Of a DNA stretch of 48,871 nt, positions 3,567 through 48,052 are shown piece by piece. Within the stretch, counting starts at the first letter, position 1. Each line of letters starts with the position of its first letter. The stretch comes from a virus. A model generated the notes under the pieces. The model was not told the DNA's origin. It did no database searches and saw nothing but the letters and a program-made list of their open reading frames with translations. The position numbers and the translations under genes are program-made. The DNA is taken from positions 1 to 48,871 of IMG/VR virus record IMGVR_UViG_3300044818_000014. The stretch is one strand, 5' to 3'.

Positions 3567-3715
3567 CCCGCGCCCGCTACCTGCTCGGCCTGCTGGAGCG
3601 GTTTCCGGGCTACACCCTGACCTCCTTGCTGGAGGAAGACACCGAGCTGATGCGCCTCGTGCGTATCGAGGAGCTCGGCGGCGCACGCGATCGAGGGGAG
3701 GTGGACGATGGCTGA
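3159..3715 (+). CDS. Tail assembly chaperone, -1 frameshift fusion (gpGT-like)
   Basis: A slippery heptamer C-CCT-TTG lies at 3479-3485, in the zero frame of the short chaperone. Slipping back one base opens the -1 frame, which has no stop until 3713-3715 and gives a 185-residue product (109 + 76). The second-frame segment has no good start of its own, and its translated sequence (LTRARYLLGLLERFPGYTLT) resembles the T part of actinophage chaperones. The fusion's stop overlaps the tape measure start at 3708. The frameshift is inferred from sequence and from its general conservation in siphophages. Confidence 0.75.
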
Positions 3716-6700
3716 CGATGTAGTGATCACAGTGCGGGTCAGTGACGCGACCGGCCCCGGGATCACCGCTGTGCGTCGTTCCGTTGCCCGGGTCGGCGAT
3801 GACGCGAAGAAGGCCGGCGGCGGCTTCGATGATCTGAAGGCGTCGATGCTGTCGCTGGCGCCGGCGGCGGTGCCGGTTGCGGCGGCGCTGGCGCCGGTCG
3901 CTGCGCGTGCGGGTGCGGCTGGTTTGGCGGTGGCGGCGTTCGGTGCGGCTGTCGTCCCGCAGATCGGGAATCTGAAGGACGCGGCGGCTGCGCAGACGAA
4001 GTACACGGACGCGGTCACGAAGTACGGTGCCCATTCGCAGCAGGCCGTGGCCGCGCAGCAGCAGGCGGCGCAGGTGCTGGCGGGGATGCCTGCGGCGACG
4101 CAGCGTGCTGCGGCCGCGTATTCGGTGCTCGGGGGGAAGTTCAAGTCGTTCTCCGACTCGACGGCGAAGTTCACGATGGTGCCGGTCGAGCACTCTTTCG
4201 CGGTGCTCGGCGCGGTCATCCCGAAGCTGACGCCGATGGTGGGGGCGACGGCGACGCAGTTGGACCGGCTGATGAAGGTGGCCGGTGGCGGGGTGAGCAC
4301 GGCGGCGTTCGACTCGCTGTCGAAGAAGGTCAGCGAGTTCGCGAACAGCAGCCTGAAGAGCGCCACGGACAGGGCGATCCACTTCATGCGGGTGTTGTCG
4401 GAGGGTAACGCGCACGGGCCGCTGACCTCGTTCATGGAGTATGCGCGGGCGCAGGGCCCGGCGGTGAAGGAACTCATCACCAACATCGCGAAGGCCGTGT
4501 CGAACCTGCTGGAGGGTGCGGCGCAGGCCGGGCCGGGGATGCTGACGCTGGTGAACGCATTCGCCAAGCTGGTGGCCAGTGTGCCGCCGGAGCTGATCGG
4601 CAACCTGATGCAGGTGTACGCAGCGTTCAAGCTGATCAAACTGGCGGGCGCCGGAATCGCCGGGGTGGCTGGCGGCGTGCAGACACTGGCGACGCGGATT
4701 GGGACTCTGACGACGGCGTCCACTGCGGCTGGCGGCGGGCTGGCGGGGCTGCGCGCGGCGTTTGCGACGCTGGGCACCGCGGCGAAGGCCACGGTTGTGG
4801 TGGCGGGTATCGCCGCGGTGGCGACGGTGCTGGCGAAGTTGAGCAATCTGGGTCGTGAGGCGCCGCCGAATGTCGATCGGCTGACCACGTCGCTGGGGAA
4901 GTTGGGCTCCTCGGGGAAGGCGTCGGGTGAGGCGGCGCGCCTGTTCGGGGATGACCTGAGCAAGTTGTTCGACTCGGTGCGGAACATCACCGACCCGTCG
5001 GCGCTCGACGACATTCAGAACGGCTTGGTCAAGGTCTTCAGCCTGGGCATGGCGGACTCGACGCCGCACGACGACGCGAAGAAGCGGCTCGACGCGATCG
5101 ATGACGGCCTGACGAACCTGGTACGGGGCGGGAAGGCTCAGCTGGCCGCGGCGGCGCTGAAGGACCTGTCTGCGGCTTACGCCAAGGGCGGCGGCGACGT
5201 GTCGCACCTCAAGGGCCAGATGGACGACTACAAGGCGGCGCTCGCGGATCAAGCGTTCGAGCAGAAGCTCGCCGCCGAGAGCATGGGCCTGTTTGGGACG
5301 CAGGCGCAGGCGGTACAGGCAAAGCTCGATGCGCAGAAGCAGTCTGCGGACGGCCTCCGCCAGTCGATCATGGCGCTCAATGAGGCACACCGGTCGGCGT
5401 ATGACGCGGAGACGAAGTTCGAGGCGGCGATCGACAACGCCACCAAGTCCATCAAAGACAACGGGCGAACGCTGGACGTCCATACCGAGAAGGGGCGCGC
5501 GAACCGTGACGCCCTGTCTCAGCTCGCGGCGGCCACCGAAGAGTCGGCGGCGAAGGCCAGGGAGAACAACGCGTCCTGGTCGACGATCGCGGGGATCTAC
5601 GACAAGGGCCGCAAGTCGATCTACGACAATGCGCTCGCGATCACACACAATCGTAAGGAAGCGCAGAAGCTCACCAACACGCTGCTGAACATGCCGAAAA
5701 GCATGTCGCTGAAGATGCGCACCGAAGACGCCGTGTCCGGCCTCAATAACGTGATCTCTGCGCTGAAGAAGACGCCGAACTCCAAGAGCATCAAGGTCAA
5801 GGCGCTGTCGGCTGACGCGGTCAGCATGCTGAAGGACCTCGGGTTCACCGTGAAGAAGCTGCCCGATGGCCGCGTCAAGGTCACCTCGGACACGCGGAAC
5901 GCGCGCCTCAACATCGCTGCGGTGAAGAACGCCATCGCGGGGTTGAAGGGCAAGAGCATCACGCTGTCGGCGCGGGACCGTGCGAGTGCGACCGCGCGGG
6001 CGATTCAGGCGGCGATCGACAGGGTCCGCGGGAAAACGGTGACGATCACGACGGTGCAGCACACCCTCGGTGTGCAGGGCACCGCGGGGCGCAACGCCCG
6101 TAACTACAACAACGCCAACGGCTCCGTCATGCAGTACTACGCCGACGGCGGCACGCGTGAGCAGCACGTCGCGCAGCTCGCCCCGGCCGGGTCGATGCGG
6201 GTGTGGGCGGAGCCGGAGACAGGCGGGGAGGCGTACATCCCGCTCGCGCCAGGGAAGCGCGACCGGTCGATGGCGATCCTGGCGGACGTCGCTGACCGGT
6301 TCGGGTACGGACTGGAGAAGTTCGCGAAGGGCGGTCTGTCGAAGGCGCAGAAGGCGGCGCGGGCCAGGGCGAAGGCGCAGGCGGATGCGGAGAATCAGGC
6401 TCGCCATGACGCGATGGGCGACCTCACCGTCTCCCGCTTCGGCCACATGGCCGGGTACAAGCGGTCGGAGCTCACGACGGCGCTCGGCAAGCCCGACAGC
6501 ATGTCGTCGCTGGTGAACGCGTTGAACCAGTGGCGGAGCATCATCGCCAAGTCCACGCACGGCGGGCAGGAGAAGTTCCTGCTGAAGGCCCTCGATTCGG
6601 CGGGCAAGCGGCTGATCGGCTACGAGAAGTCCCTGACCCGGGTCACGGCGTCGCTCGACAAGGCGAAGGACAAGCTCGACAGCCTGAAGTCCGCGGCCGC

Positions 6701-7556
6701 GCAGCTCTCCGAGAGCGTGAAGGGCGGGGTCCTCTCCTCGGCGAACATCACCCGCGGCGCGAACGGCGAAGGCCCGGTCACGATGTCGTCCATCATGGGC
6801 GGCCTCACAGCCAGCCGGGACAAGGCGACGGCGTTCGCGGGCGCGCTGAAGGACCTGAAGAAGAAGGGCCTCAGCAAGGACTTGATCCGGCAGATCGCGG
6901 AGGCCGGTATCGAGGGCGGCGGCCTGGAGACCGCGGGCGCGCTGCTCGGCGCGTCCTCCAGCGAGATCAAGTCGGTGAACCAACTCCAGGGCCAGATCAA
7001 CAAGGCTGCGGGCAGCGCGGGCAAGGCCACGGCGGACGCCGTGTACAAGGACGCGATCGCCCGGCAGGCGGGCATCGTGAAGTCGCTGGGCCAGCAGCAG
7101 GCGAAGCTGACGACGGCCATGGACAACTTGGCCAAGTCGATGAACAAGCTGATCGAGAAAGCCCTCGGGAAGAAGGCGAAGGCCGGGCGGAAGGCGGCGG
7201 GCGGCATCGTGGGCGCGGCCGCGTCGGGCGGTATGCGGGGCGGGCTGACGTGGGTGGGTGAGCAGGAGCCGGAGCTGCTGGATCTGCCGGTGGGGTCGCG
7301 GGTGTGGTCGGGCCCGGACTCCCGCCGCAAGGCCGCGCAGGCGCCGTGGGCGTCGATGCTCAACATGCCCCGCCGGCCAACCGGTTCATCCACGGCGGCC
7401 GCGGGCCCGGCGGGCGGCGGGGACGGTCAGCCGCTCGTCATCCAAGTCCGGATCGGCGAGCGCGATTTCGGCGAGCTGTGGGTGGACACGGGCCGCAAGC
7501 AGGTGCGTTCGCGCGGCTCGATCGAGGCGACACTGCGGCCGCCACGCGGCCGATAG
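3708..7556 (+). CDS. Tape measure protein
   Basis: 1282 residues, by far the longest gene, directly after the chaperone. It sets tail length and is expected to help DNA entry. The N-terminus starts with a short beta segment (VVITVRVSDATGPGI), then Ala/Val-rich hydrophobic stretches at about residues 45-90 and 310-380, long helical/coiled-coil regions rich in Ala and Lys, and a C-terminal Gly-rich segment with GGLTWVGEQEPELLDLP that is typical of actinophage tape measure proteins. ATG at 3708 overlaps the frameshifted chaperone. No lytic domain motif is obvious. Confidence 0.93.
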   Translation: MADDVVITVRVSDATGPGITAVRRSVARVGDDAKKAGGGFDDLKASMLSLAPAAVPVAAALAPVAARAGAAGLAVAAFGAAVVPQIGNLKDAAAAQTKYTDAVTKYGAHSQQAVAAQQQAAQVLAGMPAATQRAAAAYSVLGGKFKSFSDSTAKFTMVPVEHSFAVLGAVIPKLTPMVGATATQLDRLMKVAGGGVSTAAFDSLSKKVSEFANSSLKSATDRAIHFMRVLSEGNAHGPLTSFMEYARAQGPAVKELITNIAKAVSNLLEGAAQAGPGMLTLVNAFAKLVASVPPELIGNLMQVYAAFKLIKLAGAGIAGVAGGVQTLATRIGTLTTASTAAGGGLAGLRAAFATLGTAAKATVVVAGIAAVATVLAKLSNLGREAPPNVDRLTTSLGKLGSSGKASGEAARLFGDDLSKLFDSVRNITDPSALDDIQNGLVKVFSLGMADSTPHDDAKKRLDAIDDGLTNLVRGGKAQLAAAALKDLSAAYAKGGGDVSHLKGQMDDYKAALADQAFEQKLAAESMGLFGTQAQAVQAKLDAQKQSADGLRQSIMALNEAHRSAYDAETKFEAAIDNATKSIKDNGRTLDVHTEKGRANRDALSQLAAATEESAAKARENNASWSTIAGIYDKGRKSIYDNALAITHNRKEAQKLTNTLLNMPKSMSLKMRTEDAVSGLNNVISALKKTPNSKSIKVKALSADAVSMLKDLGFTVKKLPDGRVKVTSDTRNARLNIAAVKNAIAGLKGKSITLSARDRASATARAIQAAIDRVRGKTVTITTVQHTLGVQGTAGRNARNYNNANGSVMQYYADGGTREQHVAQLAPAGSMRVWAEPETGGEAYIPLAPGKRDRSMAILADVADRFGYGLEKFAKGGLSKAQKAARARAKAQADAENQARHDAMGDLTVSRFGHMAGYKRSELTTALGKPDSMSSLVNALNQWRSIIAKSTHGGQEKFLLKALDSAGKRLIGYEKSLTRVTASLDKAKDKLDSLKSAAAQLSESVKGGVLSSANITRGANGEGPVTMSSIMGGLTASRDKATAFAGALKDLKKKGLSKDLIRQIAEAGIEGGGLETAGALLGASSSEIKSVNQLQGQINKAAGSAGKATADAVYKDAIARQAGIVKSLGQQQAKLTTAMDNLAKSMNKLIEKALGKKAKAGRKAAGGIVGAAASGGMRGGLTWVGEQEPELLDLPVGSRVWSGPDSRRKAAQAPWASMLNMPRRPTGSSTAAAGPAGGGDGQPLVIQVRIGERDFGELWVDTGRKQVRSRGSIEATLRPPRGR

Positions 7557-8084: not shown

Positions 8085-10340
8085 ATGCCGGGGCTTGTCG
8101 CACAGATTGCCGGGCTGCGCCGCCGCCTGGGAATGTGGCCTGCCCCGGCGCGGTCCAGTGGTGAGGCGTCTACCGGTGAGCCGGTACAGATCGAGATGCT
8201 CGTCAACGGGGCGTGGGTCGATATCACGTCGTACGACCTGGTGCGGGACGACTCCGGCAACGTGCCGATCCAGTCCGGTATCACGGGCGGGGAGGGCTCG
8301 CAGACGGAGCGGGCGCAGGCGAAGCTGACGCTGAAAAACCGGGACGCCCGCTTCACCAGGAGGAATCCGGAGGGCCCTTACTACGGGGCGATCGGCCGCA
8401 ACACCCAGTTCCGTATCAGCGTGCCGGACGGCAACGGGGGTAAGGCGTACCGGATTTGGGGTGAGGCCTCCGGGTGGGAGGACGGCTGGGACAGCACCGG
8501 CACGGACGTGTGGGTGGGCGTCACCGTGTCGGGGATCCTGCAACGCCTGGCGCAGGCTCCGGCCCCGGACCGGTCGGTCATCTACACGGCGATCACCGAC
8601 CCGGCCCCGTCCGGGCTGGTGGCGTACTGGCCGATGGAGGACGCGTCCGGGGCGACGTCGCTGGCGTCGGCGCTGAAGAACGGGTCGGCGATGACGTGGA
8701 CGGGCACGCCCACGCTCGCCTCGTACGAGGGGCTCGCGGCGTCCGATCCGCTGCCCGACATCAGCAGCGCGGCCCTGTCCGGCGGCGTCGCCCGATATGA
8801 CGACCCGACGGCTACGCAGGTCCGGTTCCTCGCCTACATACCGAGGGCGGGCTTGTCGAACGGCAAGGTTTTGTGCGCGATCGACCAGGTCGACTACTCG
8901 GCGGGCTCCGGAGCGATTTTCGAGCTGTACTACTCGACCACGGACGCCACGAACAGCCTGGTCCTGCACACCCTCGCCTCCGACGGGACCGTCCTCGGCG
9001 CGATCCTCCCGCACACCCTCGATGTCCGCGGCCGCCTGCTGTATGTGTCGATCGAGCTGCAGGAGTCGGGCACGAGCATCACGCGGCAGATTCAGCTGAA
9101 GGACGTTGTGAGCGGCCACGTCTACACGGTGGGCGACACGGAGACGCTGACGGCCCTGACGCGCGTCACGCAGGTGCAGTTCGGTCCGGCGTCCCGCGCG
9201 GTGTCCGGGCCTGCGGGCTCCGCGAACCTTCCCGGGGTGGCGGTCGGGCACGCCACGGTGGAGAACACGATCACGGTGATCGATGCGCTCGGCGTCCGCC
9301 TGAATCCGATCGGAGAAAGCGCGGGGCGCCGGATCCAGCGCTTGTGCGCCGAGGAAGGGATCCCCTTCGAGTGGATCGGCGACCTCGACGACACCGTGGC
9401 GCTGGGCGCGCAACCGAGGTCCAACCTCCTCGCGCTCGCGCAGGAAGCCTGCCTCGCCGACGGGGGGCTGCTGTACGAGACGAAAGACGTCCTCGGCCTG
9501 GGCTACCGCACCCGCACGTCCCTGTACAACCAAGACCCGGCCCTGGTCCTGTCATACACCGGCTACAACTTCGCGGAAATCCCCGTCCCTGTCGAGGACG
9601 ACCGGCAGGTGCAGAACAACCTGACGGTCACCGTTGGCGGCGTGTCCGCCACCTACACCGAAACCGGCGGCACCCTCGGCACCGACCGGATCGGCAGCTA
9701 CGGCGAAGGCAACGGGCTCACCCTCAACCTCGCAACCTCCGACTCGGACACTCTCCTCGACCAGGCAGCGTGGCGCGTCCACCTCGGCACCGTCGACGAA
9801 GACCGCTACCCCACCGTCACCGTGAACCTCGCCCACCCGTCGATCACACCTGAGCTGCGGCGCGCCATCCTGGCCCTGCGGATCGGCGACCGCGCCCAGT
9901 TCACCGGCATGCCCGCCTGGGTGTCACCGGACCAGCCGGATCAGCTAGTCCTCGGCGTCGACGAGACGATCACCCACTTCCAGCACCGGCTGACGTTCAC
10001 GTGCGCTCCGGCGTCGCCGTACACGGTCGGGATCCTCGACTCCGATGACACGCGCCTCGACACGGACGGTTCGGAGCTGTACGCGGCGGCCGGGGCCGGG
10101 GACACCGTGCTTCAGGTGGGCCCGTCGGCTGGGCAGACCGGGTTGTGGACGACTGATCCTGCGGAGTTTCCGTTCGATGTCCGGGTGGGTGGCGAGGTGG
10201 TGACGGTCGAGGGCATCACCGGCGGCCTCGCCGACGCCTTCGACCGGAATGTCACCAGCGGCTGGGGGAGCACGGACACCGGCGAGACGTGGACGACGAC
10301 GGGCGGCAGCGCCTCCGACTTCAGCGTTGTGGGGGTGTAG
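8085..10340 (+). CDS. Minor tail protein (tail tip), ends at in-frame amber
   Basis: 751 residues. The N-terminal part (VQIEMLVNGAWVDITSYDLV) resembles actinophage minor tail proteins; a middle part with GLVAYWPMEDASGATS looks like a LamG/concanavalin-like sugar-binding domain. The C-terminal segment opens another lectin-like domain (DAFDRNVTSGWGSTDTGETW) but stops abruptly after SASDFSVVGV at a TAG (10338-10340). The rest of that domain appears at the end of the next gene, in the same frame. It probably forms part of the host-contacting tail tip. Confidence 0.87.
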   Translation: MPGLVAQIAGLRRRLGMWPAPARSSGEASTGEPVQIEMLVNGAWVDITSYDLVRDDSGNVPIQSGITGGEGSQTERAQAKLTLKNRDARFTRRNPEGPYYGAIGRNTQFRISVPDGNGGKAYRIWGEASGWEDGWDSTGTDVWVGVTVSGILQRLAQAPAPDRSVIYTAITDPAPSGLVAYWPMEDASGATSLASALKNGSAMTWTGTPTLASYEGLAASDPLPDISSAALSGGVARYDDPTATQVRFLAYIPRAGLSNGKVLCAIDQVDYSAGSGAIFELYYSTTDATNSLVLHTLASDGTVLGAILPHTLDVRGRLLYVSIELQESGTSITRQIQLKDVVSGHVYTVGDTETLTALTRVTQVQFGPASRAVSGPAGSANLPGVAVGHATVENTITVIDALGVRLNPIGESAGRRIQRLCAEEGIPFEWIGDLDDTVALGAQPRSNLLALAQEACLADGGLLYETKDVLGLGYRTRTSLYNQDPALVLSYTGYNFAEIPVPVEDDRQVQNNLTVTVGGVSATYTETGGTLGTDRIGSYGEGNGLTLNLATSDSDTLLDQAAWRVHLGTVDEDRYPTVTVNLAHPSITPELRRAILALRIGDRAQFTGMPAWVSPDQPDQLVLGVDETITHFQHRLTFTCAPASPYTVGILDSDDTRLDTDGSELYAAAGAGDTVLQVGPSAGQTGLWTTDPAEFPFDVRVGGEVVTVEGITGGLADAFDRNVTSGWGSTDTGETWTTTGGSASDFSVVGV

Positions 10341-10343
10341 GCG

Positions 10344-11564
10344 ATGGCTGATACGTACGCCAACTATGCGGACTTGGCTTCGCACGAGACCGAAGGCGTC
10401 GACTACGAGCGGCGCTCCGTTCCGGTGACCGGGGCGACGTGGTGCGCGATCGCTATCCACGGCGGCGGCATCGAGGCGGGCTCGGGTGAGGCCGCGCGCG
10501 CGGTCGGTCTTTCCTTGATGAACCACTACGAGTTCGCGGGTATCAAGAGCAGCAACAACTCGACCTTGCACATCACCTCGACGAACTTCGACGAACCGAA
10601 CGCGCTCGGCATCGTCACCGCCGCCAAACGGTGCATCAGCTTCCACGGCTACGTCGGCGGGTCGGGGACCGCCGAGACGTCATTGGGCGGCCTGGACACG
10701 GCGACCGGCGCCCGGGTGGCGGACGCGCTGAGGGCCGCCGGGTTCAGGGTGGTCGCAGCGTCGCAGGAGCTGAACGGGAACAGCGCGAGCAACATCGCGA
10801 ACAGGACCACGATCAGCGCGGGCGTGCAGCTGGAGATGTCCAACGCGCTGCGCGCCTCGTTCTTCCCCAACGGGGACCTGTCCCGGGCGATGCGCGACTC
10901 CGGGCAGCGCACCGACACGTTCAACGCCTACGTCGCCGCGGTCCGCTCCGCGTTCGACGGGCAGGGCCGCATGTCCTGCGGCAGCTTCAACGTCTCCCGG
11001 TGGGCCACCGTGCCGTGGTCCTCCGCCGACGTGGACATCCAGGCCCGCATGGCCACCGACGCCCTCGCCACCGGCGGCGCCCACTTCGTGCACCTGACGG
11101 GCCGCTTCACCGACACCAACAACAACTACCTTGCCCGCCTGGCGTTCAACACCGACCAGACGATCACCTTGACGCTGCGCTCCCGGATCGGCGGCACGGA
11201 GACGCTGCTGGCGACGGCCGCCGACACGACCGCCCTGACGCACGCGGTAGGCAGGATGTTCTGGCTCCGCTTCCAGATCACCGGCAGCACCCTCCAGGCC
11301 AAAGCGTGGCAGGACGGCGGGTATGAGCCGCCGTGGATGGTGAGCGTGACGGACGGAAACCTGCGGGCGGTGGGGCAGGTCGGGATCCGCTCGATCCTGG
11401 CGTCGACGAACACCAACACGCTGCCCGTCGTGGCGTCCTATGACGATTTTCAGCAGGTCACCCCGCAGGCGTTCACCGTGATCCGCGGCGTCAACGGCGT
11501 CACGAAATCCCACAGTTCGGGCGCCGATGTGCGCCTGGCGACTCCGACCATTCTCGCCCTGTAA
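10344..11564 (+). CDS. Poly-gamma-glutamate hydrolase-like enzyme fused to a tail lectin half-domain
   Basis: 406 residues. Residues ~1-205 match the phage poly-gamma-glutamate hydrolase family (PghP-type, zinc carboxypeptidase fold): HGGGIE gives H39 and E44, and ISFHGY gives H101 as likely zinc ligands. Residues ~210-406 are a beta-rich tail domain (DVDIQARMATDALATGG; SASYDDFQ-like region) that reads as the missing second half of the domain broken off in the preceding protein. The frame is the same as the upstream gene, separated by TAG-GCG-ATG. It is likely a tail-borne depolymerase acting on capsule or cell-surface polymer. Whether it is made by reinitiation or readthrough is unknown. Confidence 0.82.
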   Translation: MADTYANYADLASHETEGVDYERRSVPVTGATWCAIAIHGGGIEAGSGEAARAVGLSLMNHYEFAGIKSSNNSTLHITSTNFDEPNALGIVTAAKRCISFHGYVGGSGTAETSLGGLDTATGARVADALRAAGFRVVAASQELNGNSASNIANRTTISAGVQLEMSNALRASFFPNGDLSRAMRDSGQRTDTFNAYVAAVRSAFDGQGRMSCGSFNVSRWATVPWSSADVDIQARMATDALATGGAHFVHLTGRFTDTNNNYLARLAFNTDQTITLTLRSRIGGTETLLATAADTTALTHAVGRMFWLRFQITGSTLQAKAWQDGGYEPPWMVSVTDGNLRAVGQVGIRSILASTNTNTLPVVASYDDFQQVTPQAFTVIRGVNGVTKSHSSGADVRLATPTILAL

Positions 11565-11574
11565 GGAGGCACCC

Positions 11575-12135
11575 ATGGCTGAGGCCTATCCGACGTTCCT
11601 CGCGGGGCAGCGGCTGACCGCGGGCCTGCTGCGTTCCTCGCAGGAGCAGGTTGCCCGCAAGACCGCCGACACCGGCCGCGCGGCGACGACCACGACGGTC
11701 GCGGATCCGCATCTCCAGTTCGACGTCCTTGCGAACGCCGTGTACCGGTGGCACGGCTGGATCAAGTACGACGGCCCGACCGCCGCCGACCTGAATGTCG
11801 ACTTCTCGGCGCCAGCGTTGTCGCTCGGCGAGTGGACGGCGATCGGGCCCGGCCACTCCCCGGTCATCGGATCGTCGTCCGCCCCGGCGCTGATCACCGA
11901 CACGCAGGACGCGCGCGGATACCTGATGCGGGTGGAGACCAACGACGTCACGTCGGCCAGGTCGTACGGCTGTCTGGGTACGGGCGGAATCCCGCTCACT
12001 CTGCAGCTGTACGGGACGCTCCGTGTCGGCGCGACGGCCGGCACTTTTTCACTGGACTGGGCGCAGCTCGTGTCGAACGCGACGGCTTGCACGCTCTATA
12101 CGGACTCGTGGCTGTCGATGCTGCGGGTCGCCTGA
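11575..12135 (+). CDS. Minor tail / tail fibre-associated protein
   Basis: 186 residues; ATG at 11575 chosen for AAGGAGG at 11563-11569. The N-terminus FLAGQRLTAGLLRSSQEQVA is helical and resembles the anchor region of actinophage tail proteins; the remainder is beta-rich (FDVLANAVYRWHGWIKYDGP). It follows the depolymerase-like gene and is probably part of the tail tip. No catalytic motif is visible. Confidence 0.75.
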   Translation: MAEAYPTFLAGQRLTAGLLRSSQEQVARKTADTGRAATTTTVADPHLQFDVLANAVYRWHGWIKYDGPTAADLNVDFSAPALSLGEWTAIGPGHSPVIGSSSAPALITDTQDARGYLMRVETNDVTSARSYGCLGTGGIPLTLQLYGTLRVGATAGTFSLDWAQLVSNATACTLYTDSWLSMLRVA

Positions 12136-12352: not shown

Positions 12353-13291
12353 GTGGCCACTGGCCCGCAGAAGTACCCGGGCGCCAGCCTCGCCCACTGG
12401 TATCAGGACAGGTGGGGCGGCGACGTCATGGAGGTCAACGTCGTCGTCCTGCACACCACCGAGGGCCCGACCCTGCCGACCTACAACGGGGGCGCTGAGG
12501 CGCCGAACCTGACGGCCGTGCCCGACTTCGCCGCGCGCAAGCTGCGCTGGTATCAGCACTTCGATATCGACCGGTCCTCCCGCGCGCTGGTCAACCTGAC
12601 GGGCGGCGTGGAGACGAACACGCTGAACGTGTGCCAGGTCGAGCTGGTCGGCACCTGCGACCCGCACACGCACGCGGCGTGGGGTGGCGTCGAGCACATC
12701 TACTGGCCGGAGGCTCCGGACTGGGCGCTCGCCGAACTCGCCGTGTTCCTGCGGTGGATGCACGCCGAGCACGGGGTCCCGCTGTCGGGGCCCAAGGCTT
12801 GGCCGGCCTATCCGTCGTCGTACGGGGCCACGTCGGCCCGGATGACGGCTGCGGAGTGGACCGCGTTCAAGGGGATCTGCGGGCACTTGCATGTGGTCGA
12901 GAACGTCCATGGCGATCCGGGCGCCATCGACTTCGGCAGGATCATCGCCCTCGCGAAGGGCACTACCGCACCACCTGAGGAGGACGACATGCCCACTGCT
13001 GCTGAGGTCGCGAAGGCGGTGCTCACCCTGGACGGGGTGATCGCCGTGCCGGGCGCTCCGACCACGAACCCGACGTGGACCCTGTCGAGTGTGCAGACGG
13101 AGATCCTCAAGCGCATCGACGCGGTGCGCACCGCTGAGGCCGCGCAGACTGCGGCGATCACGAGCCTGGCCCGTCTGGTCGGTACCGGTGTGGACACGGC
13201 TGCCGTGGTGGCGGCGGTGAAGGTGGCTATCGCGGAAGCGGTGGTCAAGGTGTCGGTCGACGTGACCGGCCCGGCAACGAAGGAGGCCTGA
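12353..13291 (+). CDS. Endolysin, N-acetylmuramoyl-L-alanine amidase
   Basis: 312 residues, GTG start with AAGGAGGA at 12341-12348. The N-terminal ~200 residues form an amidase_2/PGRP-type zinc amidase: VVLHTTEG supplies H34, and H180-VVEN-VHGDPG supplies the distal His/Asp pair (H180 or H186, D188). It cleaves the stem peptide from MurNAc in peptidoglycan. The C-terminal ~100 residues (AAEVAKAVLTLDGVIAVPG) form a separate helical module, probably for wall binding or oligomerisation. An in-frame ATG at 12989 with its own strong ribosome site begins this module. It is followed at once by a holin-like gene. Confidence 0.9.
   Translation: MATGPQKYPGASLAHWYQDRWGGDVMEVNVVVLHTTEGPTLPTYNGGAEAPNLTAVPDFAARKLRWYQHFDIDRSSRALVNLTGGVETNTLNVCQVELVGTCDPHTHAAWGGVEHIYWPEAPDWALAELAVFLRWMHAEHGVPLSGPKAWPAYPSSYGATSARMTAAEWTAFKGICGHLHVVENVHGDPGAIDFGRIIALAKGTTAPPEEDDMPTAAEVAKAVLTLDGVIAVPGAPTTNPTWTLSSVQTEILKRIDAVRTAEAAQTAAITSLARLVGTGVDTAAVVAAVKVAIAEAVVKVSVDVTGPATKEA
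12976..13291 (+). promoter_or_regulatory. Internal ribosome site and start inside the endolysin gene
   Basis: GAGGAGG ends at about 12983, six nt before an in-frame ATG at 12989. Translation there would give the isolated 100-residue C-terminal module of the endolysin. Several characterised phage endolysins use such an internal start to make a binding-domain subunit; the same use here is inferred. Confidence 0.45.
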
Positions 13292-13693: not shown

Positions 13694-13987
13694 GTGCCGG
13701 ATGAGCTGACCCTAGGCGAGCTGGCCCGCCGCCTGGACGACCGTACCGGCGACATCCGGGACGACATCCGCAGCCTGTCGGAGGAGATGGGCAAGAAGGT
13801 CGACCAGAAGCTGTACGACCTCCGGCATGACGCTCTCGCCGCCCGCGTCGCCACCCTAGAGACGCTGCGGGAGAAGGACGCTGAGAAGCTCGTGGCGACC
13901 CGCAGGTGGCTGATCGGTGCGGTCATCGTGCCCCTGGTCAGCATCCTCCTGCCCGTGATCATCCTGTTGGCTGGAGGGGGCTCGTGA
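13694..13987 (+). CDS. Small membrane protein with N-terminal coiled coil, lysis cassette
   Basis: 97 residues, GTG start after AAGGGGAG. Residues ~1-65 are charged and helical (heptad-like coiled coil), and ~70-95 form a single hydrophobic segment ([20 protein letters not shown]). This C-terminally anchored arrangement is common in phage holin/antiholin or spanin-like accessory proteins. It lies between the holin-like and collagen-like genes, so a lysis role is inferred. Confidence 0.7.
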
Positions 13988-14652
13988 CACGGGCGCAGAT
14001 CCGCGCAGATGAACGCCGGTGGCGGCGCGGCGACAGCTTCGTGGTGGTTGCCGCGCTCGCGTTGGGCGCGGTGCTGGCGTGGATCGTCCTGGCCGTTCAG
14101 GGCGTGACGCAGGAGTTGCACACCTCGAACAGTGCAAGGGATGCGCTGGCCCGGCAGGTGGAACGGATGGGCGGCGTTCCGGTGGCGGGGCCGCCTGGGT
14201 CGAGGGGGGAGCCGGGTAGCTCGGTGACTGGGCCGCCCGGGCCGAAGGGTAAGGAGGGCGAGCCTGGCCCGTCAGGACCTTCGGGTCCGCCCGGCCCGTC
14301 AGGTTCTCCGGGAAGCGACGGGGAGGAGGGCGCGACCGGATCGCCGGGTGAGCCCGGGGCCGCGGGCGCAACGGGTCCTGCCGGTCCGCAGGGTCCTCAA
14401 GGCGAGTCCGGAGCGGCCGGTCCTCAGGGTGAGCAGGGGCCGCCGGGCGAACGCGGCACGGCGGGCCCTCCGCCCTCTGGTTGGACGTTCACGGACGGGC
14501 AGGGCGTGACGTACGAGTGCACGCAGGACTCGGCTGACTCGACGCATTACACCTGCCGCGCCACCAGCTCCCCGCCTCCCGGCAACGGGAATGGGGACCA
14601 GCCGACACCGCAGGCGGCTGGCCTGGACCCGCAGCGCCGCGTCTACGCCTAG
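13984..14652 (+). CDS. Membrane-anchored collagen-like protein
   Basis: 222 residues, GTG start in a GTGA overlap. There is a single N-terminal membrane segment at about residues 19-40 ([20 protein letters not shown]), then about 31 Gly-X-Y triplets (residues ~65-160) with one interruption, and a small C-terminal domain with two cysteines. Collagen-like repeats form triple helices; in phages they usually occur in tail fibres, whereas here the protein has a signal anchor and closes the lysis operon. It may decorate the host surface or act as a structural fibre; the role is unknown. The next gene converges and overlaps its last bases. Confidence 0.8.
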
Positions 14653-46121: not shown

Positions 46122-46658
46122 ATGGATACCGGTAACGAGCCACCCACCCCGGTGCCGGACCCAGGCACCACCAACCTCCACCCCCAAGACAGCCGAGGAC
46201 GCTTCACCCACAGCCAAATCGCCGCCGACAAAGCCGCCCACGCCCTCCGCCTCCGAACCGCCAACCCGAAGATGACGTACCAGCAGATCGCGGACGAGGT
46301 CGGCTACAGCAACAAAGGCGATGCCTGGCGCGCCATCCAAGACGCCCGCGAAGCCGTCAAACGCGCCGCCGGCGCCGAGCTCGTCGCCGCCGAAGCGCAG
46401 CAGTTGGACGATCTGTTCGCCGCCGCCCTGGAAGTCCTGGACCGCGACCACGTCGTCGTCTCCCACGGCCGCATCGTGTGCGACAACGACGGCAACCCCC
46501 TCCTCGACGACGGGCCCAAGCTCGCCGCGATCCGCGAGATGCGCGCGATCCGCGAGTCCTACCGCAAGCTGTACGGCGCGGACCAGCCGACCCAGGTCGC
46601 CGTGTCGGGCGCGGTCCGGTACGAGGTTGTGGGCGTCGACCCGGCGGACCTCACGTGA
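46122..46658 (+). CDS. Terminase small subunit
   Basis: 178 residues, immediately before the large subunit (GTGA overlap). The N-terminal region has a helix-turn-helix (MTYQQIADEVGYSNKGDAWR-AIQ) for DNA recognition, then a helical oligomerisation part (AIREMRAIRESYRKLYGA) and a short C-terminal strand that may contact the large subunit. It recognises the packaging site and stimulates the motor. Confidence 0.85.
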   Translation: MDTGNEPPTPVPDPGTTNLHPQDSRGRFTHSQIAADKAAHALRLRTANPKMTYQQIADEVGYSNKGDAWRAIQDAREAVKRAAGAELVAAEAQQLDDLFAAALEVLDRDHVVVSHGRIVCDNDGNPLLDDGPKLAAIREMRAIRESYRKLYGADQPTQVAVSGAVRYEVVGVDPADLT

Positions 46659-48052
46659 CGACGGCGCTCGACCAGGACGCGATCGTCCGGTATGAGCCCC
46701 GCGGCGCCGCACGTGACCTGTTCCGCACGAGACAGGCGGAATGCTTCCTCGCGGGCCCCGCCGGCACCGGCAAGAGTCTCGCCTGCCTTTTTCGGCTGCA
46801 CCTGATCGCGCTGCACAACCCGGACATGCGCGGCCTGATCTTCCGCAAGACCGCCGTGTCCCTCGGGTCGACGACGCTGGTGACGTGGGAGAAGAAGGTC
46901 ATCGCTGACGCGCTGGCTCGGGGCATCGTGAGGTGGTTCGGCGGGAGCGCGCGTGAGGCGCCGGGCTACCGGTACTCGAACGGGTCGAAGATCGACGTTG
47001 CGGGGATGGACCGTCCGGAAAAGATCATGAGTGCCGAGTACGACCTCGTGTTCGGCGACGAGGCCACCGAACTCACCCTGAACGACTGGGAGTCCGTCGG
47101 CACCCGCCTCCGCAACGGGAAGCTGTCGTGGCAACAGCAGATGGGCGCCTGCAACCCGTCTGCGCCGACGCACTGGATCAAGCAGCGATGCGACCAGGGA
47201 CAGGCAAAGATGCTCGTGTCCCGGCACCGCGACAACCCTGCCTACGTGAACGCTGACGGGTCTTTCACCGAGGTAGGCCGCGCCTACATGGCCAAGCTCG
47301 ACGCGCTCACCGGCGTCCGCAAGTCGCGGCTGCGCGACGGGACATGGGCGGCGGCCGAAGGGTTGATCTACGGCGGCTTCGACGAGGCTGTACACCTCGT
47401 CGACCCGCGGCCCATCCCCGACAGCTGGACCCGGTGGTGGACCGTGGACTTTGGCTTCACCAACCCGTTCGTCCTCCAGTGCTGGGCCGAGGACGGCGAC
47501 GGCAGGCTGTGGCTGTACCGGGAGATCTACCGCACGAAGCGCCTCGTCGAGGATCATGCCCGCGACATCCTGCGCCTGGTGCGCCGCTGCAAGAAACGCT
47601 GCACGTCGAAGGCCGCCGACCACGACTTCCACACCTGCAAGGACTGCGAGACGGAGTGGAACGAGCCGCGGCCGCGCGCAGTGATCTGCGACCACGACGC
47701 TGAGGACCGGGCCACCCTGCAAAGGCATCTCGGCCTCGGGACAAGCCCGGCGACGAAGAAGGTCAGCCCCGGCATCCAGGCCGTGCAGTCGCGGCTGAAG
47801 CTGGCGGGGGACGGCCGGCCCCGGCTGTTCATCGTGCGCGGTGCGCTGGTGGAGCGGGATCCGGAGTTGGAGTCGGCGAAGAAGCCGTGTTCCACGGAGG
47901 AGGAGATCACCGGCTATGTGTGGGCGGTGAAGCCGGGCGGGACGATGCCGGAGGCTCCGCTGAAGGAGAACGACCACGGAATGGATGCCGCCCGGTACCT
48001 TGTAGCTGAACGCGACCTACGGGGTCGCCCTCAGTTCAGGTCGGTGGGATGA
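46655..48052 (+). CDS. Terminase large subunit
   Basis: 465 residues, GTG start. ATPase motifs: Walker A GPAGTGKS (K40) and Walker B LVFGDEATE. RNase H-like nuclease residues: VDFGFTNP, CDHDAEDR and DHGMDAARY. It translocates DNA into the head and cuts concatemers. Between the first and second nuclease motifs there is a Cys/His-rich insert (CKKRCTSKAADHDFHTCKDC) that looks like a zinc knuckle and is not a general feature of the family. Confidence 0.93.
   Translation: MTTALDQDAIVRYEPRGAARDLFRTRQAECFLAGPAGTGKSLACLFRLHLIALHNPDMRGLIFRKTAVSLGSTTLVTWEKKVIADALARGIVRWFGGSAREAPGYRYSNGSKIDVAGMDRPEKIMSAEYDLVFGDEATELTLNDWESVGTRLRNGKLSWQQQMGACNPSAPTHWIKQRCDQGQAKMLVSRHRDNPAYVNADGSFTEVGRAYMAKLDALTGVRKSRLRDGTWAAAEGLIYGGFDEAVHLVDPRPIPDSWTRWWTVDFGFTNPFVLQCWAEDGDGRLWLYREIYRTKRLVEDHARDILRLVRRCKKRCTSKAADHDFHTCKDCETEWNEPRPRAVICDHDAEDRATLQRHLGLGTSPATKKVSPGIQAVQSRLKLAGDGRPRLFIVRGALVERDPELESAKKPCSTEEEITGYVWAVKPGGTMPEAPLKENDHGMDAARYLVAERDLRGRPQFRSVG

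Follow-up and report, generated by a model that had tools for sequence, protein, structure and literature searches.

A PghP-type hydrolase placed within a tail-protein lectin domain that is divided between two genes of a putative Streptomyces-type phage

Domain insertion in phage tail adhesins is already known, and the host protein there is normally one chain. In the evolved Dit of siphophages of Gram-positive hosts, a carbohydrate-binding module is inserted in a tail-tip protein (PMC10688798, PDB 5ly8). T4 tail lysozyme gp5 undergoes post-translational proteolytic cleavage between Ser351 and Ala352 (PMC3004832). The tip domain of the mycobacteriophage Douge central fibre gp20 (PDB 8zdp/8zdq) was reported to bind mycobacterial surface glycans (PMC13033339). 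PghP degrades the gamma-DL-PGA of bacilli (PMC4497714, PMC6506827). Its catalytic set contains the zinc ligands His-Glu-His plus His78 and Glu165 (PghP numbering), and mutating the five harms PghP (PMC6506827).

The locus described here shares features with these systems. As in evolved Dit, a conserved tail-tip protein contains a nested carbohydrate-binding domain that varies between related phages, and the fold is similar. The evolved Dit is one chain and its insert is the binding module, whereas here the binding module itself contains an enzyme, and the gene is cut at that site. The locus can also be likened to T4 gp5, in which a tail-tip protein contains an internal enzyme, the polypeptide is cleaved beside this enzyme and the pieces are held together in the virion. 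The T4 cut is proteolytic and falls in a linker, but here it is the gene that is cut, at a point within a beta-sandwich domain. The Douge gp20 tip has the same fold as an intact relative of our domain, but it is a single chain without an enzyme insert. PghP of the Bacillus phage phiNIT1 and PghL/YndL of B. subtilis (PF05908, MEROPS M86) share the whole hydrolase domain and the five catalytic positions with our locus. They are free-standing enzymes, whereas here most of a lectin domain is attached to the C-terminus of the enzyme. The phosphodiesterase-PghP protein of Staphylococcus phage Fi4S2 is likewise encoded among tail genes, but its PghP is C-terminal in a single, unsplit chain of 1,132 aa. 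An enzyme in a turn of a binding domain combined with a gene cut inside the same domain was not found in the literature searched, of which coverage was partial.

The window and its two genes

The window is the whole stretch of DNA analysed, a 48.9-kb virus record. Among phage records, its close DNA matches were only to Streptomyces phages, and one relative with the split arrangement was located within a genome of the genus Streptomyces. A Streptomyces-type siphophage or prophage is therefore the most likely source. The record starts with head-tail genes and has the large terminase at its right end (46478-48052; PHROG 2, E 1.7e-32), so it is probably a circularly permuted map. The tail module runs from the tape measure through a 169-aa protein, the 751-aa tail protein, the 406-aa protein and a 186-aa protein to the endolysin. 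The gene for the 406-aa protein is flanked by conserved neighbours. A collagen-like Gly-x-y repeat gene (13906-14652; Pfam Collagen, E 1.4e-14) lies just past the endolysin.

The tail-protein ORF (8085-10340, 751 aa) and the next ORF (10344-11564, 406 aa) share a frame. The features of the region are as follows.

3708 to 7556: tape measure, tail module
8085 to 10154, + strand: N part of the tail protein, residues 1-690, PHROG 5313 type (PHROG 5313 E 1.9e-139)
10155 to 10223, + strand: small base domain, first half, residues 691-713, FPFDVRVGGEVVTVEGITG; in lectin-free relatives it runs straight into SSPQTFTVTRSVNG...
10224 to 10337, + strand: ConA-like lectin domain, first part, residues 714-751, ending SASDFSVVGV; in about 95 distinct relatives it continues directly into the segment equivalent to 10956-11459
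10331 to 10335, + strand: GGGGG, ribosome-binding-like motif, 13 to 9 nt ahead of the second start
10338 to 10346, + strand: gene boundary TAG-GCG-ATG; stop-to-start gap 3 nt (1-4 nt across all nine split loci)
10344 to 10955, + strand: PghP-type poly-gamma-glutamate hydrolase domain, residues 1-204 of the second protein (PF05908 E 6.9e-52)
10956 to 11459, + strand: ConA-like lectin remainder (tblastn and alignment with intact loci; fold comparison)
11460 to 11561, + strand: base domain, second half, PQAFTVIRGVNGVTKSH...ILAL; the same tail closes the single gene of intact and lectin-free relatives
11575 to 12135, + strand: next tail gene, MAEAYPTFLAGQRLTA... (186-aa protein); comes next after the uninterrupted gene in most close intact relatives
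12353 to 13291: endolysin, tail module region

The two ORFs, their common frame and the boundary are exactly as the initial annotation gave them. It had also described a complete PghP-like hydrolase with H39, E44 and H101, and the profile match bears this out. The second protein contains a whole PghP domain (Pfam PF05908, residues 5-199, profile positions 1-191 of 191). It matches the solved relatives 21dc, 3a9l and 5onl (E 1e-27 to 1e-34). The catalytic set H39, E44, H76, H101 and E164 is all there and is invariant across six split sequences. The hydrolase may act on another gamma-glutamyl or surface polymer, because our literature search found no report tying Streptomyces phages to gamma-DL-PGA. 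The C-terminal 202 residues of the second protein had no Pfam family match.

PghP domains occur in other settings. In the actinophage and Bacillus-type contexts seen, they either stood alone or formed the N-terminus of a larger protein. We dropped the idea that PghP always requires a free N-terminus, because the domain is C-terminal in phage Fi4S2. A 60%-identical PghP was found at the N-terminus of a different protein in Streptomyces sp. NWU339 (L013, 4983-6683; also L100). This fusion sits just 3' of a tape-measure-like gene and is a second, unrelated tail mounting of PghP. In L110, L113, L114 and L118, on phage contigs of up to 155 kb, PghP is N-terminal in proteins of about 1,400 aa. These are probably another family of PghP-carrying virion proteins.

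Intact relatives and the fold of the lectin domain

In IMG/VR loci, a single ORF encodes without interruption what the window divides into the C-terminal 61 residues of protein 1 and the C-terminal 202 residues of protein 2. A single tblastn segment crosses the junction in about 130 loci, with about 95 distinct peptides once five split loci are taken out. In the intact locus L020, residue 750 is joined directly to residue 207. Nearly every complete intact gene checked shares the C-terminal motif. The N part of the window protein is 57-74% identical to intact relatives and about 30% identical to the other split loci.

The lectin, too, is missing from several relatives, and in them ...GGEVMTVTAISG is joined directly to SSPQTFTVTRSVNGVVK... 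Insert-free homologues thus exist at both levels (lectin-free and hydrolase-free), with the flanks joining at one point. The series is nested. A base domain received a lectin, and the lectin received a hydrolase. The split cuts two nested domains because the lectin is itself an insert in the smaller base domain.

These relatives bear on several points raised earlier about the tail gene. The 751-aa protein had been said to stop inside a lectin-like domain. In many loci its residue 750 joins residue ~206 of protein 2 within one ORF, and the domain is whole in one gene in the roughly 95 distinct relatives. The continuation had been placed from about residue 207 of protein 2. It is present, but it starts at about D205. 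The C-terminal domain usually occurs without a hydrolase, which speaks against a self-standing domain always attached to the enzyme. Termination of the upstream protein at this residue is confined to loci in which the hydrolase comes next.

Streptomyces phage Yara (L006, 4212-5609) has a tandem duplicate of the lectin domain in one tail protein. L046, L048, L051, L055 and L057 contain an extra ~160 aa between the N part and the base domain, which suggests that the C-terminal region of the tail protein is a general insertion site.

The model of the intact L020 protein had a mean pLDDT of 90.7. Residues 67-273 form a ConA-like beta-sandwich. In fold comparison, for which Foldseek was also used, it matched CBM66 (Z 19.6, rmsd 2.2, 160 residues), the tip of the Douge central fibre (Z 18.0, 176 residues) and the evolved-Dit module 5ly8 (Z 16.5). 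The range matched to CBM66 and Douge includes the fragment encoded by the first gene. The intact domain is a putative carbohydrate-binding lectin with a predicted ConA-like, CBM66-like fold. The insertion point, residue 105/106, falls in a turn of three residues that connects strands 101-104 and 108-112, and two consecutive strands therefore fall in two proteins.

The split loci, their history and the fragment

Eight more distinct loci contain the hydrolase with the lectin remainder (L007, L009, L010, L011, L012, L107, L109 and L124). The gene is split in all nine loci with a hydrolase at this site, so the host protein is not one chain. In each of the nine, the upstream gene terminates right after S(V/I)xG(V/A/G). 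A search of 393 genomes of the genus Streptomyces yielded one of these loci, L124, and one decayed remnant. The remnant (L121, 1355-2200) is a decayed split module in a bacterial genome, with the fragment and hydrolase left. Its fragment is shortened and in another frame, and its lectin remainder is truncated. The genome contig scan found the N-terminal PghP fusion only and no split locus. No match in the INPHARED phage records reached 80% coverage of the 406-aa second protein.

In a tree of both lectin halves, eight split loci formed one clade (100/98; L124 was left out). In a tree of the ~300 residues upstream of the fragment, the window paired with the intact L020 (100/97) and the other split loci fell elsewhere. 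The two trees indicate that the split module spread by recombination, because the lectin halves form one clade and the rest of the tail gene does not. Near residues 670-690, identity between the window and L020 drops from about 80% to 40%, and identity to the split loci then rises to about 60%. From the trees and this switch, the split most likely arose once, and the module most likely entered the window lineage through a recombination event located 5' of the fragment instead of at the gene border. The recombination point is about 60-80 codons upstream of the stop, in a lineage that carries the intact domain (sister L020). The initial annotation read the locus as a depolymerase cassette dropped precisely into a tail gene. 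The hydrolase is indeed inserted precisely in a tail-protein domain, but the window phage appears to have received an already split module, not the enzyme alone.

Among split loci, mean pN/pS was 0.61 in the 38-residue fragment, 0.56 in the lectin half encoded downstream and 0.44 in the hydrolase; these ratios are rough, as synonymous divergence is high and sites are near saturation for distant pairs. In the closest pair, L011-L012, the fragment had dN 0.10 against dS 0.54. These values indicate that the orphaned fragment is still under purifying selection.

The fragment might instead be a useless stub. The protein of the second gene would then be independent of the first, with its remaining lectin strands able to fold by themselves or to do without the missing ones. 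Consistent with this, many phages have a free-standing PghP. A model of the two window proteins as one fused chain (stop as Gln) gave a good hydrolase but a fragment pLDDT of 30-50, so the fragment was not confidently placed. That model was run on a thin alignment because full-length alignments with intact rows put the fragment wrongly onto the hydrolase. Co-transfer alone is no proof that the halves interact, because linkage moves adjacent DNA together. Against a stub, nine diverged loci share the motif at which the fragment ends, and selection on it is similar to that on the downstream lectin half. The lectin and the base domain each have one half per gene, and split loci keep the base-half signature at the end of the second gene. 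We consider a stub unlikely.

Translation of the two genes and a proposed two-chain domain

The stop codon is TGA in L007, L009, L010, L107, L109 and L124, TAA in L011 and L012, and TAG in the window. The stop-to-start gap is 1 nt in L007 and L009, 2 nt in L010, L011 and L109, 3 nt in L012, L124 and the window, and 4 nt in L107. The second gene starts with ATG or GTG, and this start codon coincides with the first residue of free-standing PghP proteins. A purine-rich motif (GGGGG, AGGGGG, GGGAG or GGGAGG) starts 14 to 12 nt before the second start in 8/8 split loci checked. It was at the equivalent place in 0/29 intact loci. The second gene is in frame with the first at three of the nine split loci, which is the chance expectation, and all three frame relations are present.

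These features support well the separate translation of two proteins. Termination followed by reinitiation, with two chains made, appears to be the simplest reading. Reinitiation yielding two parts of a split domain was one of two outcomes foreseen for this locus, and the gaps of 1-4 nt and the distribution of the motif favour it. The other was amber suppression, in which the TAG is read through and the 1,158-residue fusion is the product or a minor product. The window frame is open across the TAG, as this would need. The conserved in-frame continuation of readthrough tail proteins is absent, and six of the nine split loci are out of frame. With the differing stops, this excludes readthrough as the shared mechanism. 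The upstream frame of L011 is closed one codon past its stop. No tRNA gene was found in the window, which therefore has no suppressor. Readthrough is very improbable here.

Programmed frameshifting or bypassing could link the genes where the frames differ, and in several loci the second frame is open for some codons upstream. All three frame relations occur among the nine loci, so a single, fixed slip cannot serve them all, and each second gene has its own ATG or GTG at the conserved first residue of the hydrolase. We give this even less credence than readthrough. A sequencing or assembly artefact in the window is the least credible of all, as nothing was found to favour it and eight other independent contigs share the arrangement with different stops and frames.

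Two coupled polypeptides therefore remain our preferred reading, and we think it probable that their halves reassemble non-covalently and that the hydrolase is displayed from the lectin at the tail tip. The ConA-like domain would have received, in a 3-residue beta-turn, an entire PghP hydrolase that brought its own start codon but no stop. The tail gene would terminate at this turn, and translation would restart within 1-4 nt from a purine-rich site in its last codons. Coupled translation would give a first chain with the tail protein, one half of the base and the first lectin strands. It would give a second chain with the hydrolase, the rest of the lectin and the rest of the base. The halves would join non-covalently in the virion. 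The enzyme would be anchored by its C-terminus on a lectin loop, with its N-terminus free. It may digest a gamma-glutamyl polymer or a similar surface polymer during adsorption.

We lean, with less assurance, towards regarding the locus as a naturally split lectin. Gene fission would mount an enzyme by one end in a beta-turn of a tail adhesin, and the two-gene module would be inherited and exchanged as a unit. Two nested domains would be rebuilt from two chains in the virion.

Here the insertion is accompanied by a gene cut in a beta-sandwich, which is kept across nine diverged loci and appears to have spread by recombination. Apparently truncated tail genes may be one half of a two-gene domain, and this is a warning for their annotation. 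If the halves reassemble, the locus would be a natural two-chain scaffold that shows an enzyme on a binding domain. A phage could then gain an enzyme that degrades surface polymers while keeping its adhesin.
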